From contig NZ_CP132294.1 in NCBI RefSeq assembly GCF_030734285.1, forward strand, positions 1,302,001 through 1,366,000: DNA of 64,000 nt, in the 5' to 3' direction. The position numbers and the translations under genes were made by a program. Numbering within the stretch: position 1 is the first letter of the stretch; every line of letters begins with the position of its first letter. Source of the stretch: Natronococcus sp. AD-5 (GTDB lineage Archaea; Halobacteriota; Halobacteria; Halobacteriales; Natrialbaceae). Positions 1,875 to 51,363 of this stretch are shown here, piece by piece. The notes below the pieces were generated by a model. The model did not search any database, was not told the origin of the DNA, and worked only from the letters and a program-made list of their open reading frames with translations.

Positions 1875-3014
1875 GTGACCCCGTTCACTCGTTCGAAGAG
1901 CGAACGTGCACGGCCTTCACGGAGCGACCCCTCCTCGGCGAACCGTGAGACGGACACGCGCAATCTCGTGTACGTTATCACGGCCCTCCACACGGGCGGG
2001 GCTGAAGTCGGAATGTGTCGGCTGTTGGACGGGCTGAACGACGATCGGTACGACGTTACCGTCGTGACTCTCAACGGCTACGACGAGACGTTCGTCGATC
2101 GACGCGTTCCGGACGTCGAATCGATACTCGACTGCAAACGGCTCAGAACGCCTCGAGACGCATCGAAACTCGTCTCCGCTGTGGCCGATGCGGACGTCAT
2201 CGTCGGGTCGCTCTTTCACTCCCAACTGGTCGCTCGACTCGCGGGCGTCGCCAATCGAAACGCCGTCGTCGCCACCTGGCAGCACAACGAGCGATTCAAA
2301 ACGGCGTTCAGGAAGAAACTGTCGGGAGCGATGCACCCGCTGAGCGACGTTCTACTCGCGGATTCCGATCCCGTCGCGGAGATGCTCCACGACGAGTTTG
2401 GATTCACCGACGGGTTCGTCAAAACGGTTCCGATCGCCGGCGTACCGTTGAGCGAGTTCGAACGGCGGGAACACGACCACGCCGACCCGGTGGTCGTCGG
2501 AAGCGTCGGCGTCCTCTCCGATCAAAAGAATTTCCGAACGCTCCTCGCGATCGCGGACGAACTCGACGGGGAGGGAATCACGTTTCGGATCGCCGGCGAC
2601 GGACCGAACCGCGGGAAACTGGCGTCTCGAATCGAGTCCGCAGGTATCGAAAATATCGAGCTTCTCGGTCACGTGCGAGACCTATCGCAATTCCTGAACT
2701 CCATCGACGTGTACGTTCAGCCATCGCGGTTCGAGGGACTTTGCATCACCGTCCTCGAGGCGATGGCGACGGCGCTTCCGATCGTCGGCAGTTCGGTCGG
2801 TGGAATCGGGCACAACGTGACCGAGGGAACGTGCGGGTACCTCCACGATCCGGACGATGTAGAGGGGTTTTGCCGCTCAATTCGGGAGTTAGCTGCCGAT
2901 CCGCTGAAACGGCAGCGCTTCGGCGACCGTGGACGGGAGCTCGTCGAGCGCAACTATACCCAAGACGTGCTCGTCGAGGAGTTCGAACGGGCCATCCACG
3001 GTGCATCCGCCTGA
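1875..3014 (+). CDS. GT4-family glycosyltransferase
   Basis: A GT-B fold glycosyltransferase. The N-terminal acceptor domain begins LVYVITALHTGGAEVGM, a typical GT4 opening with a Gly-rich loop. The C-terminal donor domain has SRFEGLCITVLEAMA with the E-x7-E donor motif, then GSSVGG. The start is uncertain. The reading frame is open back into the previous gene. The GTG at 1875, just after the epimerase stop, is chosen; the GTG at 1968 would begin exactly at the first beta strand and is the main alternative. It likely adds one sugar to the lipid-linked glycan on the cytoplasmic side. Confidence 0.82.
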   Translation: MTPFTRSKSERARPSRSDPSSANRETDTRNLVYVITALHTGGAEVGMCRLLDGLNDDRYDVTVVTLNGYDETFVDRRVPDVESILDCKRLRTPRDASKLVSAVADADVIVGSLFHSQLVARLAGVANRNAVVATWQHNERFKTAFRKKLSGAMHPLSDVLLADSDPVAEMLHDEFGFTDGFVKTVPIAGVPLSEFERREHDHADPVVVGSVGVLSDQKNFRTLLAIADELDGEGITFRIAGDGPNRGKLASRIESAGIENIELLGHVRDLSQFLNSIDVYVQPSRFEGLCITVLEAMATALPIVGSSVGGIGHNVTEGTCGYLHDPDDVEGFCRSIRELAADPLKRQRFGDRGRELVERNYTQDVLVEEFERAIHGASA

Positions 3015-3401
3015 GGCCGCGAAAGCGGTCGAACGAGCCGTCGTTTCGGTCCGCTCGCGGAAACGGTGATAGGAACGTATCTTCGCCGCACTAGTCCTCG
3101 AACAGAGAGAGATTACTCCGCGATCGGATCAGCGATTGGCCACGTAACGAGGACAGCGAGGACGAACAGCACGACGGAGCTCACAAACTGTACACTCGCC
3201 TCTCGATTCGGCCGTACGATCCCAATGACGCTGTCATCGCGGCCGGAAAAGCGAGTACAGAAAGACCCAGATAATTGGAAATGTGTAGGTGGCGATTGTT
3301 TTACAGAAAAGAAGATACACACGAGAATATACATTATATGCGAATACAATCGCCGCAATCGGGGCAACATATTATAAAAACTCGAGTCATATCTGGCCAT
3401 C
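3015..3401. other. gene-free AT-rich spacer, possible decayed gene on the minus strand
   Basis: About 390 bp without a convincing gene. On the minus strand, roughly 3113-3230 encodes a hydrophobic stretch (VQFVSSVVLFVLAVLV) that reads like the end of a membrane protein, but it has no credible start or upstream domain. The right half is AT-rich and ends in the promoter of the next gene. Confidence 0.4.
3372..3379 (+). promoter_or_regulatory. TATA box of the GT4 gene at 3402
   Basis: The sequence ttataaaa is centred about 27 nt ahead of the ATG at 3402, the spacing expected for a leaderless archaeal transcript. Confidence 0.55.
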
Positions 3402-4649
3402 ATGCGGATCGCCTTCATTCACCCGCATTTTCCTTCGGCGGAGGGAACCGGGGCGACCCACACGGCGACGCAAATCGTTACTGGACTCGCAGAGAGGGGT
3501 CATGAGGTGTGCGTGTACTGTGCTGAAGTGCCGGACGGCGACCCAATCGACTTCGGAATCGAGTTTCGGTATCTCACCGGGAACAGCAGTCATCCACACA
3601 CGGATACCCGGTTAAATAGAGAGGTCACCGCTCGGCTCGACGAGTTCGGCGAATTCGACGTCGTGCACAGTTATTTGATGTCTCTGATTCCCGCTATCGC
3701 CGAAGTCGGAAAAGCGACGGATGCGGGCACTGTCGTCACGTTAAACGCGTACAAGGGAGTCTGCGCGAAAAACGATCTTCTCTACCGCAACGAAGAACGG
3801 TGTGAGAGCAAGTCGATCGGAAAGTGCTTGCGTTGTATCGGTAGCACGGGATTCGACGACGACGAGTACGGATACCTGTACCAAACCGGGAGCCAGCTGT
3901 TTTCGCTTCAACTGGTTCGTGAAGCGAACCAGCAGTTCGATCACGTCGACGCATTTCGTGCCCCGTCCGAACACGTCCGAGAAAACTACGTCCAGTTCGG
4001 ATACGACCGCAACAAGATACGCGTCATTCCGCACCCGGTCGACGAGAATTTTCTCGTCGATCACCGGAGTGAATTCGCGGAGCCCTACGACCTCCTGTAC
4101 GTAGGCTATCTTATAGAATCGAAGGGGGTCAGGAAACTGATACCGATTCTCGATTCGTTGAACGACGGCGAGTTCGAATTCAACCTCACGATCGTCGGTA
4201 CCGGCGGGTTAGAATCGACGCTTCGGAAGCAAGCCGAAGAACACGACGTAGAAAACCGTGTGGAGTTTGCTGGGTTCGTCCCGAATGGAGAGTTACCGCA
4301 CGTGTACGCTGAACACGATTGTTTCGTGTATCCCGGAATCTGGGATGAACCGTTGGCTCGAGTGTATTTGGAGGCGCTGTCCACGGGAACTCCGATCGTA
4401 ACCAGCGAGTACGGAGTCGTCGAGGAGATCGTCGGTGAGGGCGGAGTCACTACCGACGGCTCCATTGACGATTTCCGCAGGGAAATTCACCAGCTAGCCA
4501 GTGATGATAGCTTTCGTGAACTGTCGCAAGGAGGACGACGGAAAGCAGCAGACTACGATCTGGAACCAGTCATCGAGGAGCTAACTGAAATGTATCTCGA
4601 GGTACAGGATCAAAGCAGTGGTGCGAAGATTCGCGCGGGCTCCCGATAG
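3402..4649 (+). CDS. GT4-family glycosyltransferase with cysteine-rich insert
   Basis: A 415-residue GT-B enzyme. The N-terminus MRIAFIHPHFPSAEGTGAT is a classic GT4 opening. The donor site near the C-terminus is WDEPLARVYLEALSTGTP, with E-x7-E. Between the two halves is a segment with four cysteines (CAKNDLL, ERCES, GKCLRCIG), a pattern also seen in other GT4 proteins and possibly metal binding. It is led by its own TATA box and followed 58 bp later by another GT4 gene with the same kind of cysteine insert, so the two probably act in succession on one glycan. Confidence 0.85.
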   Translation: MRIAFIHPHFPSAEGTGATHTATQIVTGLAERGHEVCVYCAEVPDGDPIDFGIEFRYLTGNSSHPHTDTRLNREVTARLDEFGEFDVVHSYLMSLIPAIAEVGKATDAGTVVTLNAYKGVCAKNDLLYRNEERCESKSIGKCLRCIGSTGFDDDEYGYLYQTGSQLFSLQLVREANQQFDHVDAFRAPSEHVRENYVQFGYDRNKIRVIPHPVDENFLVDHRSEFAEPYDLLYVGYLIESKGVRKLIPILDSLNDGEFEFNLTIVGTGGLESTLRKQAEEHDVENRVEFAGFVPNGELPHVYAEHDCFVYPGIWDEPLARVYLEALSTGTPIVTSEYGVVEEIVGEGGVTTDGSIDDFRREIHQLASDDSFRELSQGGRRKAADYDLEPVIEELTEMYLEVQDQSSGAKIRAGSR

Positions 4650-45187: not shown

Positions 45188-45601
45188 CTACTCGGCGTCC
45201 GTCTCGAGCGCGTGGCAGCTCTCGAGGATGCGCTCGAGGTCGTCGGTCGGGGGCATCCACCTGACCGCGCCGCTGCGGCTGTCGTACTCGACCAGTCGCC
45301 GGTCGGCCAGCTTCGGCAGGTGATTGTGATAGAGGTCGATCAGTACCGGCTCCCGGTCGTCGTCGTCGATTTGCTCGGACGGGAGATCGGTCTCACGGGC
45401 GGCGATCATCGTCGCCAGCGACTCGACGTCCGCGACCTCGTTCCGGGAGAGGTGGTACAGCACGTCGCGGCGTCGCTGATGGCTAAGAAGCGAAAGTAAT
45501 TCGTCTATCGACGACCGATGGTCGCCGATAGACGGCGGGTCGAATCGGGGTTCGTCCGTCGTCGACCGTTCGTCGGAATTCTCCGAACGATAATCAACCA
45601 T
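45188..45601 (-). CDS. DUF7344-type winged-helix regulator
   Basis: A 137-residue paralog of the protein at 31497-31862. The disordered N-terminus is followed by LLSLLSHQRRRDVLYHLSRN and then DLYHNHLPKLADRRLVEYD, the winged helix. It is divergent from the HalOD1/RecA-like gene at 45790 and could regulate it, an inference from layout only. A TATA-like sequence (tttatta, minus strand) lies about 28 nt before its start. Confidence 0.8.
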   Translation of the reverse strand: MVDYRSENSDERSTTDEPRFDPPSIGDHRSSIDELLSLLSHQRRRDVLYHLSRNEVADVESLATMIAARETDLPSEQIDDDDREPVLIDLYHNHLPKLADRRLVEYDSRSGAVRWMPPTDDLERILESCHALETDAE

Positions 45602-45789
45602 ATATCTGTGGAGTATCGATCAACGCTAATAAACTTGTTAGAGAAGTGCTCCGCCGGAACGTAAGAAACAAATACAGAACCGGATGCGTAACGCACTATT
45701 CTTTTGATAGTAATCTCCGTTAGTTCTATCCGCTGTTCGAGTAGTATATCCGCGACCTTTTCGTGGGGCTCGCTCGTACACCGCTGCAG

Positions 45790-47016
45790 ATGACGAACGA
45801 CTGTTCTCGGACGGGAGACGAATCTCGGGCGGATGGCGGAGACGTTACGAGCGCCGAGATCCGGCCTCGTCCGAGCGTCGCAATCGTCGAGCGGGTCGCG
45901 GACGAAACCGAAATCTCGCCGCTCGAGTTGCCGCCGCTAAACGACACGATCGACGCGGACGCGCTCGATCGGCTGCTCGGCGCCTCCGGCGAGTCGGCGA
46001 ACGACGCGTGGCCGACCGTCGTCTTCACGTACGCGGATTATCGCGTCCGCGCGACCGCCGATGGGCAGGTGGCGCTCTCGAGTCCCAGCGCCACCCCGAT
46101 CTCGGTGGTCGACGAGTGGACTCACGTTTCGATCGTGGAGACGACCGACGAGAAGGACGTTGCGACGCGCGCCGTGGCGGCGGTCGCCGAGTGCTCCGGA
46201 CAGGATCTCTCGACGGTTCGGACGGCGATCGGGAACGTCGTCGATATCGACGCGGTCGCCCGGCTGGGAGGGGAGCGGGGAAACGGGGCGTCGCGATCCG
46301 GAGCCACCGTGCTGTTTTCGGTACTCGGGTACGACGTCGTCGTCGAGTCGAACGGAACGATCGCCGTCGGATCTACGCTCAGGCGGCTGAAACAGACAGG
46401 CGGGAACGTGCTGATCGTCGGTGCCGTCCCCGACGCCCTCACCGACGTGGCGAGCGCCAACCTGCTCGGCGATCCGGACCGCGGTCGACGGCACGTCTTC
46501 GCGTTGCTCGATCGTGACGATACCGTCGTCCTCGATCGGTTGGGTTCGCCGGACGCGACGTCCGCGCGCGTCGTCGATTACGCGGCGGCGTCGCGTTCCG
46601 CGGCGAGCGCACGGACGACCGACGCCGATCTCGCAGTCACCGACGAACCGACCGACCTCGACGAACTCGAGACGGCGATCGAGGCGCAGATCCGGGCGCT
46701 CGTGACGGGGACGACCCTCTGCGAGCCGGGAGAGCTCCGCATCTGCGTCGACTCGTTGCGTCCGGTGCTGGATCAGCGCGACACGGACGGCGCCGTCGCG
46801 TTCCTCGAGTCGATCTGTGACTCGGTCAGGGACGCGTCGGGGCTCGCACACTACGTCCTGCCGATCGACCGGGACGAATCGGTCGTACGGAGGCTCGAGC
46901 CCCTGTTCGACGCGACGATCGAGCTCCGGGTGAGCGAGTCGGGCCCCGAACAGCGGTGGCACCTCCACGGGAGCGACTACACGACCGACTGGTTCGACCT
47001 CGCGCCCGTCCAGTGA
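45790..47016 (+). CDS. double HalOD1 domain protein with RecA-like C-terminal region
   Basis: A 408-residue soluble protein. Two HalOD1 output domains lie in tandem: residues ~30-105 (VERVADETEISPLELPPLND with IDADALDRLL) and ~120-195 (AVAAVAECSGQDLSTV with VVDIDAVARL). The C-terminal half begins GGNVLIVGAVPDALTDVASA, a degenerate P-loop-type strand, and resembles the RecA/KaiC-like DUF7504 regions of halophile signalling proteins. The Walker A Lys is absent, so ATP binding is doubtful. ATG at 45790 is preferred to the alternative start at 45763. The CHAT peptidase gene follows after 91 bp on the same strand. Confidence 0.75.
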   Translation: MTNDCSRTGDESRADGGDVTSAEIRPRPSVAIVERVADETEISPLELPPLNDTIDADALDRLLGASGESANDAWPTVVFTYADYRVRATADGQVALSSPSATPISVVDEWTHVSIVETTDEKDVATRAVAAVAECSGQDLSTVRTAIGNVVDIDAVARLGGERGNGASRSGATVLFSVLGYDVVVESNGTIAVGSTLRRLKQTGGNVLIVGAVPDALTDVASANLLGDPDRGRRHVFALLDRDDTVVLDRLGSPDATSARVVDYAAASRSAASARTTDADLAVTDEPTDLDELETAIEAQIRALVTGTTLCEPGELRICVDSLRPVLDQRDTDGAVAFLESICDSVRDASGLAHYVLPIDRDESVVRRLEPLFDATIELRVSESGPEQRWHLHGSDYTTDWFDLAPVQ

Positions 47017-47107
47017 TCCCGTTCGCAGCGCGTCGATCGGGACGTCGCATCGGCGCCGTTCCTCGAGGGCGTAGCGCTCGCGACCGAACCGTAACCACCA
47101 TCTACCG

Positions 47108-49189
47108 ATGAACGTGAATCCGACGTTTCAGCCGGTCGACGACAGGCCCGGGTTGACCGTCATCGATTCCATCGAAAACAGGCAGTATCCGCTCCGGACC
47201 TCCGACTCGGTTTCGCCGCGCGCGGCCGACTCCACCGGGTTCTACTTTCCGGTCGACGCCGCCGTCTCGTTCACGACGACGAAGCTGGTGTTACCCTACG
47301 TCGTCCCGATCTACGTCCGGGATCCGGATGGGGAGATGCTCCTCGAGGCCGAACACTACGCGTACGAGACGCTACCCGACGGCGAGTACGTCCTCGAGTT
47401 GATGGCGCCGATCAAACTCTACGTTCACGTGCGAAGCGGCGTAACGATCGCCTCCTCCGATGACCGCCTGTCGTTCGACTTCGGCGAGCCGACGTCCGTT
47501 CGACTGGGGGCGCGTTCGCGTCACAAGCGCCCCGCGGCGACGGTCGCGACGACGGCCGAACCCGACGATCTAGCGCGTGCGGTCTCGACGTTCGGTTCCG
47601 CGCTGAAGACGACCGGTTGCGATCGGTCGCTCCCGTCGTTCCGCGGTCATCCGCCTCGGCTCGCGTTGGACGACGAGGTCCGAATCCCGGACGAAATCGA
47701 GCCACCGGATACCGGAATCACGATAGTCACGCCGCCGGAGCGGACGGCGATCTACGCCGTCAGCCCGCTCGCCTACTACCTCGGCGCGACGGTCGAAACG
47801 GGGTCACGCCCCCGCATCGAAACGGATTGCGGCTTCGAGTATCCGCTCGATCGCTCGAACGAGCCGTTCGACCGGTCGATCCAGCGGGTTCTCGAGCACG
47901 TGTTCTTCTTCGACTGCGTGATTCGGACGGAGGGGTTGTACCAGGTCGACCTCCACGAGCGCCGTCGCCTCGAGGAACGCGTCGATCTGGCGTTCGACGA
48001 GTTGTACGAGGCGTCCCCGGCCGATCGGCTGGCCACCGTCCTCTCGGTGCCGTTCGAGACCGTCGAGGATCTCGTCCCCACGTGGCACCTCGTTACACAC
48101 GCGACCGCGGCGTCCGAGAATGCGACGATGCTGCCGTTTCTCGTGAACGAACTGTCCGTCGTCCGAACGAACCCGGACGACCGAGAACCCGCCGACGCTC
48201 CGTCGGCGAGACCGCTCGCGATCGACGAGTTTACGCGCTCGAACGCTCGATCGGTCGAGGACGACTCCCCGTCGATCGACGCCTACGTCTCCCCGCCCGA
48301 CGTCGACGCCTTCGAACAGGCGTGGTTGGGCGACGGCGTTCCGGTCGGAGCGAACAAGCTCTCGCGGGCTGCGTTCGAAAACGGACTCGATCGGTCGGCG
48401 TCCGGCGACGGCGTCGACGTCACGATCGTCTGCAACGATCCGGAAATGGCCGCCGAATTCGAAGCGGGTGACGGCGGTCTCTACGGCGATCGCGAGGAGC
48501 TCCCGTTCGACGTCACCGTTCACCGAAGCGTCTCCGGCGACGAGCTGCGGCGGCTGTTCGCCGAAGACGTCGATTTCCTCCACTACGTGGGCCACGTCAG
48601 GGACGGCGCGTTCGTCTGTTCCGACGGGACGCTCGACCCCGGAACGCTACCGGACATCGGCGTCGACGCGTTCCTGATCAACGGGTGCCGATCGTACGAA
48701 ATCGGGACTCGGGTAATCGAGGAGGGGGGCGTCGGCGGAATCGTTACGCTCAGCGAGATCGGGAATCGGGACGCGATCGTGGTCGGCCGATTCGTCGCAA
48801 AGCTCCTGAACAACGGGTTCACGCTCCGTTCTGCGGTCTCCCTGGCTCGCTCCCATCGCTTCGTCGGTAACCAGTACATCGTCGTCGGCGACGGCGGCAC
48901 GGCCGTTGGACAGGCCGGAAGCGGCGTTCCGAACAGCTGCCGAATCGAACCGATCGGTGACGACACCTATCGGCTGCGACTGCAACTCTACCACGTCGAC
49001 AGCGGCGTCGGAGCGCAGTACATCCCCTACCTCGACGGTGTGGACCGTCACTTCCTCGCTGGCAACGAACTTCCGCCGTTAGAAGTCTCCGGCCAGACGC
49101 TGTCGCGTTTCCTGCGACTCGCGCAGATACCCGTCGAGTACGACGAAGAATTTTGCTGGTCGACGGACGATCGATTCGCCTCGCTGTAG
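47108..49189 (+). CDS. CHAT-like (caspase-fold) peptidase
   Basis: A 693-residue protein without membrane segments. Residues 1-150 are beta-rich, the middle is mixed, and the C-terminal third has the features of a CHAT domain. A putative catalytic His496 is in FLHYVGH and Cys527 in FLINGCRSY, followed by GVGGIVTLSEIGNRDAI and FVAKLLNNGFTLRSAV, the helix that follows the Cys in CHAT peptidases. It would cut a protein substrate when activated. It is paired with the double-HalOD1 protein upstream, a possible sensor or activator. Proteolytic activity is inferred. Confidence 0.74.
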   Translation: MNVNPTFQPVDDRPGLTVIDSIENRQYPLRTSDSVSPRAADSTGFYFPVDAAVSFTTTKLVLPYVVPIYVRDPDGEMLLEAEHYAYETLPDGEYVLELMAPIKLYVHVRSGVTIASSDDRLSFDFGEPTSVRLGARSRHKRPAATVATTAEPDDLARAVSTFGSALKTTGCDRSLPSFRGHPPRLALDDEVRIPDEIEPPDTGITIVTPPERTAIYAVSPLAYYLGATVETGSRPRIETDCGFEYPLDRSNEPFDRSIQRVLEHVFFFDCVIRTEGLYQVDLHERRRLEERVDLAFDELYEASPADRLATVLSVPFETVEDLVPTWHLVTHATAASENATMLPFLVNELSVVRTNPDDREPADAPSARPLAIDEFTRSNARSVEDDSPSIDAYVSPPDVDAFEQAWLGDGVPVGANKLSRAAFENGLDRSASGDGVDVTIVCNDPEMAAEFEAGDGGLYGDREELPFDVTVHRSVSGDELRRLFAEDVDFLHYVGHVRDGAFVCSDGTLDPGTLPDIGVDAFLINGCRSYEIGTRVIEEGGVGGIVTLSEIGNRDAIVVGRFVAKLLNNGFTLRSAVSLARSHRFVGNQYIVVGDGGTAVGQAGSGVPNSCRIEPIGDDTYRLRLQLYHVDSGVGAQYIPYLDGVDRHFLAGNELPPLEVSGQTLSRFLRLAQIPVEYDEEFCWSTDDRFASL

Positions 49190-49212
49190 CGGCGCAGTTC
49201 CGTTTTCGGACG

Positions 49213-49347
49213 TTACCACGTTCCGCCGCCGTTCCCGGCAGCGACGGTGCCGGCCTGCGACAGCAGGAGGCAGGCGGTGAACAGGACGCCCATCAGTCGG
49301 GGGTGCTCCGCGAGGAACGCTCGTAATTGGCCATTACTCGATGACAT
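49213..49347 (-). CDS. tiny secreted or membrane peptide (DUF7503-like)
   Basis: A 44-residue reading frame. It starts MSSSNGQLRAFLAEHPRL, then a hydrophobic core (MGVLFTACLLLSQAG) and a short Gly-rich end. I recall a halophile family of such peptides with LxEHPRxxGxLFTxLLLLSQAG, numbered DUF7503, but cannot check it. A TATA-like sequence (49374-49383) is about 30 nt ahead of its start. It converges on the CHAT peptidase gene with 23 bp between the stops. Confidence 0.7.
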   Translation of the reverse strand: MSSSNGQLRAFLAEHPRLMGVLFTACLLLSQAGTVAAGNGGGTW

Positions 49348-49761
49348 TGCATGATTACCGTGAACTCGAGGCGTAATATAATTTTCCTAAAAAATTTTTT
49401 ATGTAATTAGTAATTTCTTACAACGGAAACTCAAAAATCATATAGTTACGTACAGGTTGTATTACGTTATTACCGGGATAGGACGAGATGGTACCGAGAT
49501 AAAACACGTTATTACCCGATCAGGACTGGAGTAGTATCGCGCTTAACGAAACGTAATGCGATTTTTCCGGCGATAATACGGCATTTCGTCCGAGATTCGC
49601 CGGGAAGCGAAGCGATCTCCGGCCGGACCGACCGTCGCGTCGGTCGAAAATCCACTCCTCGGCGCGAGACGGCTTTCGACCGGGTTAGCCGCCTCCTATG
49701 CCCTATGATAGCACTTCACCGGGGCGGGAAGTTTTTATCAGTTCACCTGCTACCCGCACCC
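49348..49761. other. AT-rich promoter region with a direct repeat
   Basis: About 410 bp between divergent genes, with an extremely AT-rich core (49374-49450). A 21-bp imperfect direct repeat lies at 49464-49484 and 49506-49526. No gene seen. Confidence 0.5.
49464..49526. repeat. imperfect 21-bp direct repeat, 42-bp period
   Basis: ACGTTATTACC-GG-AT-GGAC occurs at 49464-49484 and 49506-49526 with three or four differences. The 42-bp period is close to four helical turns, so a regulator could bind both on one face. Confidence 0.5.
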
Positions 49762-51363
49762 ATGAGCCGTGACCGGGCCCTCCTCGACCGGGCCCTGGAA
49801 CGTGGCGAACAGGACGGGGGCAGCGTCGAATTCAAGGAACGACTGCTCCGAGACGTCCACCTCGAGGGGGGACGCAGGGAGAGTCTGGCTGCACAACTTC
49901 GACACCGCATGCTCTCGGGCGACGGCGAGGCGACGTACGTCGTCGGCGTCACCGACGACGGCGGCCTCGCCGGCATCGACCCCGACACCTTCTCCGAAAC
50001 GATGGACGTCCTCTCGCTGCTCGCGGAGGAAGCCGACGCCCACATCGACGACGTCCAGACGTGGGGCCTCGAGGGCGGACTCGTCGGGGTCGCGCGGATC
50101 TGCGACGGCGCGATTCTCGAGACCGACGACGAACACCTCGTCGTCGGGACGGCCGGCCACGTCGACCACGGAAAGAGTACGCTCGTCGGCTCGCTCGTCA
50201 CCGGCACGGCGGACGACGGCGACGGCGCGACGCGCGCGTATCTCGACGTCCAACCTCACGAGATCGAGCGCGGGCTCTCGGCGGATCTCTCGTACGCCGT
50301 CTACGGCTTCGACGACGACGGTCCCGTCCGCGTGCGCAATCCGAACCGCAAGTCGGACCGCGCTCAGGTCGTCGAGGAAGCGGACCGGCTCGTCTCGTTC
50401 GTCGACACCGTCGGCCACGAGCCGTGGCTCCGTACCACGATCCGCGGACTCGTCGGGCAGAAACTCGACTACGGGCTGCTCGTCGTCGCCGCGGACGACG
50501 GACCGACGCGAACGACGCGCGAACACCTCGGCGTCCTGCTGGCGACCGACCTCCCGACCATCGTCGCGATCACGAAGGCCGACGCGGTCTCCGAGCGGCG
50601 GGTCCAGGAGGTCGAACGCGAGGTCGAGCGCCTCCTCCGCGACGTCGACAAATCGCCGCTGCGGGTCGCCCGCCACGGCGTCGACGCCGCCGTCGAGGAG
50701 ATCAGCGAGCGCGTCGTTCCGATCGTCACGACCAGCGCGATCACGATGGAAGGTCTCGGGACGCTCGACGAACTGTTCGACCGCCTGCCGAAGACCTCCC
50801 AGGACGCCGGCGAGTTCCGGATGTACGTCGATCGCAGCTACTCCGTGACCGGCGTCGGCGCGGTGGCTTCGGGCACCGTCATGGCCGGCGAGGTCGAGGC
50901 CGGCGACGAACTCCTGATCGGGCCGATGGCCGACGGCCGGTTCCAGGAGGTCGAGGTTCGATCGATCGAGATGCACTACCATCGGGTCGACAAGGCTCAG
51001 GCGGGCCGGATCGTCGGCATCGCGCTCAAAGGCATCAAGGAGAGCGCCATCGAGCGCGGAATGGTCTTGCTCCCGCGGGACGCCGATCCCGATCCCGTCC
51101 GGGAGTTCGAGGCCGAGGTCATGGTGCTCAACCACCCGACCCGCATCGGCGACGGCTACGAGCCGGTCGTCCACCTCGAGACGATCGGCGAGGCCGCCGC
51201 CTTCTACCCCGAAGACGGTCGGCTCCTGCCCGGCGACACCGGCGAGACGACCGTCCGGTTCAAGTTCCGCCCGTACCTCGTCGAGGAGGGCCAGAAGTTC
51301 GTCTTCCGCGAGGGCCGAAGCAAGGGCGTCGGGACCGTGACCGACGTCCACCCCGCCCGGTGA
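49762..51363 (+). CDS. GTPBP1-like translational GTPase
   Basis: A 533-residue GTPase of the GTPBP1/archaeal EF-Tu-like group. After an N-terminal domain of about 110 residues come G1 GHVDHGKST, G3 DTVGHEPW and G4 ITKAD. DIERGLSAD-like switch I is here EIERGLSADLSYAVYGF. Two beta-barrel domains follow, with GVGAVASGTVMAGEVEAGDE. It may act on the ribosome or mRNA. The ATG at 49762 is preferred over the upstream open frame. Confidence 0.9.
   Translation: MSRDRALLDRALERGEQDGGSVEFKERLLRDVHLEGGRRESLAAQLRHRMLSGDGEATYVVGVTDDGGLAGIDPDTFSETMDVLSLLAEEADAHIDDVQTWGLEGGLVGVARICDGAILETDDEHLVVGTAGHVDHGKSTLVGSLVTGTADDGDGATRAYLDVQPHEIERGLSADLSYAVYGFDDDGPVRVRNPNRKSDRAQVVEEADRLVSFVDTVGHEPWLRTTIRGLVGQKLDYGLLVVAADDGPTRTTREHLGVLLATDLPTIVAITKADAVSERRVQEVEREVERLLRDVDKSPLRVARHGVDAAVEEISERVVPIVTTSAITMEGLGTLDELFDRLPKTSQDAGEFRMYVDRSYSVTGVGAVASGTVMAGEVEAGDELLIGPMADGRFQEVEVRSIEMHYHRVDKAQAGRIVGIALKGIKESAIERGMVLLPRDADPDPVREFEAEVMVLNHPTRIGDGYEPVVHLETIGEAAAFYPEDGRLLPGDTGETTVRFKFRPYLVEEGQKFVFREGRSKGVGTVTDVHPAR

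Follow-up and report, generated by a model that had tools for sequence, protein, structure and literature searches.

The question raised by this locus is which gene, if any, is the constant partner of a candidate protease in haloarchaea and what the two might do together. The locus lies in a window of 64,000 nucleotides from Natronococcus sp. AD-5, a haloarchaeon with a genome of 5.17 Mb whose closest named relatives belong to Natronococcus (N. pandeyae at 84% identity). The open reading frames and strands between positions 45188 and 49347 were as given in the preliminary description, and four genes were assigned. The first (45188..45601, minus strand) is divergent and encodes a probable winged-helix regulator of 137 residues with a DUF7344 domain (Pfam PF24035, 3.7e-22); an ArsR-type HTH match from NCBIfam was weak (8.4e-4) and under its own cut-off. 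It is followed on the plus strand by a gene for a HalOD1-HalOD1-DUF7504 protein (45763..47016; 417 residues from a GTG start) and by a gene for a 693-residue protein (47108..49189). The fourth gene (49213..49347, minus strand) is convergent with the third, the two stop codons being 23 bp apart, and encodes a 44-residue DUF7503 micropeptide with one hydrophobic segment (Pfam PF24335, 3.4e-19). The flanks were assigned to housekeeping genes from Pfam and NCBIfam matches, namely pyrF, a small zinc-finger gene, a SelB/EF-Tu-like GTPase and methenyl-H4MPT cyclohydrolase. The GTPase (49705-51363) scored 175.6 bits against a SelB cut-off of 242. It is conserved next to the module in seven named loci, and in 7 of the 31 named loci examined (L073, L075-L078, L080 and L081) the module is flanked, as in the window, by pyrF and a SelB-like gene.

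The major data collected for the 693-residue protein were structural. Its AlphaFold model, built from 30 relatives, had a pLDDT of 85.3 and a pTM of 0.86 and predicts a beta-rich N-terminal part, a middle region and a caspase-like C-terminal domain. Residues 325-638 were modelled in a CHAT/clan CD fold resembling CHAT, separase and gingipain structures, and the top solved structures found by Foldseek included separase (2.3e-6), the SAVED-CHAT filament (2e-5), RgpB (2.8e-5) and the Craspase TPR-CHAT protein (1.8e-4). Alignment with VIA-align gave Z scores of 18.9 for RgpB (236 residues, 2.9 A), 17.6 for SAVED-CHAT 8tl0_D (168 residues, 2.4 A), 15.9 for separase and 13.6 for Csx29. The SAVED-CHAT match covers model residues 431-602 (48398..48913, plus strand), which were assigned to the CHAT domain. 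The comparison of 47108-49189 with CHAT domains that had been proposed earlier thus returned the caspase-like fold, and the CHAT-like His/Cys dyad noticed in the letters alone falls within it. Both dyad residues, H496 (codon 48593-48595) and C527 (codon 48686-48688), were conserved in 29 of the 30 aligned relatives, and H492 in all 30, so that the earlier reading was not refuted. The alignment comprised 30 of the 36 loci L001-L036, the two pieces of one frameshifted paralog (L004 and L007), three close orthologs (L011, L013 and L015) and a split hit (L031) having been left out. The sole member without H496 and C527 was L006, a paralog from the same genome. Among 20 further divergent loci, 18 kept both residues, and L183 and L193 had neither. 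Pseudoprotease homologs occur in haloarchaea (L006/L049 at G000:C1:509607-511790, and L193) and, in the case of L183, in a different family of the phylum. By fold and dyad, the 693-residue protein is assigned as a CHAT-type clan CD protease whose activity is predicted from the model.

This assignment was reached only through structure and the PF12770 (CHAT) matches of a few relatives, since sequence routes failed for the window protein. It matched no Pfam family at E<=10, no NCBIfam or PADLOC entry and no PDB sequence, and a 30-row profile found nothing among PDB sequences either. Six of the 30 members matched PF12770 at E<=1, with 4.5e-4 as the lowest value; the window protein was not among them, and in the window's own genome PF12770 reached at most 15.4 bits, its cut-off being 24. 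A few family members are already correctly labelled in records: in 25 plasmid records that carry CHAT relatives, nearly all of the proteins are annotated as 'hypothetical protein', one as 'CHAT domain-containing protein' and one as 'caspase family protein'.

The upstream protein had been described as two HalOD1 domains joined to a degenerate RecA-like half, and this was borne out. Pfam matched HalOD1 in two stretches (6.5e-26) and DUF7504 at residues 213-388 (8.3e-48; 46399..46926, plus strand), and the NCBIfam DdfA family (NF053557) matched the HalOD1 part at 2.7e-26. Aligned relatives suggest a later ATG start, in ...LQMTND. In the model (pLDDT 85.6), residues 204-417 take a KaiC/RecA fold, with Z scores of 17.1 to KaiC 7s65_A (182 residues, 2.9 A) and 16.5 to the archaeal RecA-superfamily ATPase 2dr3. 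The DUF7504 alignment contained no Walker-A GK[TS] loop, the P-loop position reading VGxVPxxxxDxAS, and a [FV]DSL element was retained in most sequences. ATPase activity is therefore unlikely.

A survey for a fixed pair of HalOD1 and CHAT had also been proposed, and such a pair was not upheld. Of the 81 named CHAT genes, 47 are preceded by a codirectional DUF7504 gene, and of the 50 ORFs that make up the DUF7504 cluster, 28 carry HalOD1. The other 34 CHAT genes, some of them at contig ends, have no recognised upstream DUF7504; none was recognisable in Haloarcula-type loci, and ten candidate upstream ORFs, several of them probably in wrong frames, gave no Pfam match. The HalOD1/DUF7504 partner is thus common, yet not fixed, beside CHAT. 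DUF7344, kept beside the module in Natronococcus relatives, and HalOD1 were both considered as the core of the module and were set aside because they are lineage-limited.

The near-fixed pair is CHAT and DUF7503. A convergent DUF7503 gene was found within 1 kb of 72 of the 81 CHAT genes in 80 named loci; 71 of these came from the main neighbourhood survey, all but one within 165 bp, and L141 was added. At L105 the peptide gene follows CHAT on the same strand at a distance of about 1.4 kb, and no DUF7503 was seen for the remaining eight genes, one of which is near a contig end. Across 61 genomes (the window's own and relatives), CHAT was present in 54 and DUF7503 in 51. Of the 83 DUF7503 copies, 81 stood tail-to-tail with a listed CHAT gene no more than 600 bp away; one of the other two lies at the start of a contig, and one is separated from CHAT by a block of genes. 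In 294 genomes sampled across the phylum, CHAT occurred in 50 and DUF7503 in 44, all among those 50; DUF7503 was in none of the 244 CHAT-less genomes. Fifty-nine of the 61 copies in that sample were convergent with CHAT; of the other two, one faces a frameshifted own-genome paralog that was absent from the CHAT search list and one (G322) is on the same strand. Co-occurrence and orientation were near-perfect over 12 families in the first sample, and this was repeated in the second; the arrangement is found again and again, well beyond what chance would give. A solo clade of CHAT genes has no peptide (none for the 14 genes scoring 350-400 bits; one exception, L202, was found later), and a search for a small peptide beside solo-clade or distant CHAT genes at 22 loci gave one clear DUF7503-like peptide, that of L202, and otherwise chance-like ORFs. 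In the literature searched, neither DUF7503, DUF7504 and DUF7344 nor haloarchaeal or Haloferax CHAT domains were found to be treated, and the CHAT module and its link to the peptide did not appear there. The new fact here is DUF7503 as the near-locked partner of a CHAT protease.

Several individual loci depart from or extend this arrangement. Distant CHAT relatives in family f25 of the same phylum (L183-L186, from G087, G068, G077 and G096) stand without DUF7503, and the dyad is kept in three of the four. In L203, a CAAX-type intramembrane protease-like ORF (2708-3532) directly follows CHAT, and DUF7503 is about 4.5 kb further, past serA- and hisA-like ORFs (names by eye). Two tandem DUF7503 copies are present beside one CHAT gene at G144:C1:486534-486796. 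In Haloferax mucosum and H. profundi (L148 and L149), DUF7504, CHAT and DUF7503 lie between UspA-like and response-regulator-like ORFs, with a guaB-like ORF beyond (also named by eye), and elements of the same layout are found again at nine loci.

From its substitution pattern, DUF7503 is judged a genuine coding gene under purifying selection. In 114 related pairs, which are not independent, the median dN/dS was 0.23 with values below 1 for 113 pairs, and differences at codon positions 1, 2 and 3 numbered 463, 346 and 1219. It probably has its own promoter: a probable BRE/TATA element, TTAGGAAAATTATAT, is present in the window at 49376..49390 (minus strand), and an A/T-rich TTAGxAAAA-TTATAT-like element recurs about 28-43 bases upstream of DUF7503 in named relatives as well as in the window.

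Protease and peptide duplicate and travel as a unit. At L080 (1498-8315), two CHAT-DUF7503 pairs stand in tandem downstream of a single HalOD1-DUF7504 gene, the two peptides differing at about two thirds of positions, and of the 26 peptides in the named set that have a paralog in the same genome, 25 were closer to a peptide from another species than to that paralog. CHAT and peptide distances were correlated (Mantel r 0.587, 71 pairs, 0 of 2000 permutations). This correlation was rejected as proof of contact between the two, as linked inheritance alone yields it. The window's own genome also holds a third module, L047 (G000:C1:3690791-3692847), of DUF7504, CHAT and DUF7503, in which CHAT is split into two frames past the region of the catalytic Cys; an intact second CHAT gene (3688303-3690312) comes after it on the same strand.

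Linkage alone does not tell whether DUF7503 is a substrate, an inhibitor, an anchor or a signal. The gene for a CHAT substrate commonly adjoins that of the protease, as was shown for Csx30 (PMC9729208), and DUF7503 is on these grounds the first candidate substrate. We tentatively favor, with somewhat less than even confidence, a three-part archaeal proteolytic switch of a HalOD1/DUF7504 gate, a CHAT protease and a DUF7503 partner that is most likely the substrate. The degenerate KaiC-like HalOD1/DUF7504 protein would sense or relay a cell-state signal and so gate the protease, presumably a clan CD cysteine enzyme acting through His496 and Cys527 as the model and their conservation indicate. 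The peptide (40-50 residues, one hydrophobic segment), apparently transcribed from the opposite strand by way of a promoter of its own, would be the dedicated partner that the observed linkage points to. Once activated, CHAT may cut this membrane peptide, altering its activity or releasing its short tail. Since 34 of the 81 CHAT genes have no recognised DUF7504, the gate is not universal, and the signal dependence suggested earlier is an inference.

The 72 peptides follow roughly the pattern YLAE[NH]P[RK]MxGVLFTxxLLL[ST]QAG[NT]xAA[AG]NGGT, with P in 72/72, Q in 71/72, and F and G each in 69/72; the helix is conserved above the variable tail. Such conservation (as of P, Q and G) is as expected for a binding surface, and it speaks for a second reading, in which DUF7503 is an inhibitor or membrane tether, securin-like or an anchor, that holds CHAT inactive at the membrane until DUF7504 relays a signal. 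The same CHAT-DUF7503 linkage counts for it, as does the retention of one peptide per protease in the tandem duplicates of L080. A separate convergent promoter without co-transcription would, however, be unusual for a stoichiometric inhibitor, and the solo-clade CHAT genes manage without the peptide. This reading is considered fairly unlikely.

The leader of DUF7503 resembles a Sec signal, and an AxA-like site follows the hydrophobic core, with a short tail beyond, in most of the 72 sequences. From these features the peptide could be the precursor of a secreted signal of 6-10 residues (GNGGGTW in the window) that passes between cells, with CHAT as its processor or responder. This would be in keeping with the density-dependent shape change of Haloferax volcanii, which, in the portion of the report available, is driven by a small molecule resistant to proteinase K, with DdfA, a HalOD1 protein, taking part (PMC12240190). 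The supposed signal peptide is, however, better conserved than one would expect of such a segment, and it is the tail that varies; moreover, two members (the second L080 copy and L081) have lost the AxA motif and kept the GNGG tail. The strong conservation and these two losses argue against a plain signal peptide, no receptor or importer was linked among the conserved neighbor clusters, and a signal precursor is deemed quite improbable.

A defence role, as in the preliminary description, would make the module an anti-phage abortive-infection system resembling gasdermin-CHAT or Craspase. SAVED-CHAT and Csx29 are indeed among the closest fold neighbors, a small membrane-peptide gene adjoins CHAT, and there are several paralogs per genome, some of them plasmid-borne. 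Against this, CHAT is present in 54 of the 61 genomes, the flanks are pyrF/SelB-like housekeeping genes in 7 of 31 named loci, and there was neither a PADLOC match nor a relative in phage records or viral contigs. The wide and often syntenic distribution favors stress or cell-state signaling over phage defence; the earlier suggestion was not sustained and is given a low probability, and the output of the proposed proteolytic switch would probably be a stress or cell-state response. That DUF7503 is a bystander, lying near a self-sufficient protease by chance or through shared termination, is very improbable: convergent genes require no functional tie, but the near-perfect co-occurrence and orientation persist over the 12 families, in the second sample and through duplications.

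A possible counterpart in the biochemical literature was also considered. The available portion of one report describes extracts of Haloferax volcanii in which a caspase-like activity (LEVD > VEID > IETD) is dominant and is blocked by zVAD-FMK; it names no gene for the activity and calls for identification of the protein (PMC3615174). The same text points to comparable activity in Halorubrum and Haloarcula, and to activity in Sulfolobus among other archaea, brings up the proteasome and describes a partial inhibition by EDTA; among the papers listed in the literature search, none was found that later named the gene. Haloferax mucosum, H. profundi and several Haloarcula species carry members of the CHAT family. 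In H. volcanii itself, DUF7503 and DUF7504 match, which together with the CHAT-DUF7503 linkage would imply a CHAT gene there, none having been seen directly; PF12770 has no match in that species, which says little, as it falls under the cut-off in the window's genome too. The CHAT family is therefore a candidate for this gene-less activity, not proof of its origin, and the breadth of the activity (Sulfolobus) is not explained by a family that was searched for within its own phylum only. The bolder proposal that it is the missing gene behind the activity in H. volcanii and other haloarchaea, as part of an ancient caspase-like pathway, with DUF7503 as the native substrate cut under a dead KaiC-like sensor, is rather doubtful. 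If true, an archaeal caspase-like protease would for the first time be matched with a micropeptide substrate dedicated to it. The conserved haloarchaeal family offers one gene family for deletion with regard to the caspase-like activity, and the CHAT-DUF7503 pairing is an unusually clean protease-micropeptide system with more than 100 natural pairs for coevolution work.

Comparison with known systems places each component differently. Phr/arbitrium-type peptide precursors have about 44 residues, a hydrophobic leader and a short tail. DUF7503 is alike in all three respects and differs in that its gene is convergent, its helix is conserved and no linked receptor was found. The HalOD1 domain is shared with DdfA (HVO_2176) of Haloferax volcanii through NF053557; DdfA is a cell-shape regulator, and the part of the source available mentions no CHAT gene next to its own. 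A connection with HVO_2248, a hypermotility gene of Haloferax, was weighed and dropped: the accessible text gives a protein without an InterPro domain, sometimes beside an htr gene, from which its identity could not be discerned. DUF7504 is alike in fold to KaiC and PH0284 (2dr3; Z 16-17), differing from KaiC/RecA ATPases in the missing Walker-A GK[TS] and in a HalOD1 fusion that is found in some lineages only.

For the protease, the gingipains RgpB and Kgp (4ief, 6i9a) gave the top Z (18.9) and a long alignment from residue 325, before the catalytic half. Gingipains are secreted bacterial enzymes, and their N-terminus differs. Separase (5fc2, 7nj1) is likewise a large regulated clan CD protease and is alike in the fold of residues 325-603 (Z 15.9), whereas there is no detectable sequence similarity and neither a cohesin-type substrate nor a securin is known for the haloarchaeal CHAT protein. 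The CHAT-gasdermin type differs in its adjacent gene, no gasdermin being found there and the conserved neighbor being the 44-residue DUF7503. Unlike the Craspase TPR-CHAT protein, the haloarchaeal one has a beta-rich N-terminal part with no TPR, residues 1-140 being strands and loops only (DSSP on the model). Its partner is HalOD1/DUF7504 rather than a CRISPR effector, neither gRAMP/Cas7-11 nor Csx30 being among the conserved neighbors in the 80 named loci (DUF7504, DUF7344 and DUF7503), the neighboring gene encodes a 44-residue hydrophobic peptide, and the setting is halophile genomes with housekeeping synteny. What is shared with SAVED-CHAT (8tl0) and Craspase TPR-CHAT/Csx29 is a caspase-like C-terminal domain with a His-Cys dyad, a sensor partner and a neighboring gene as candidate substrate.
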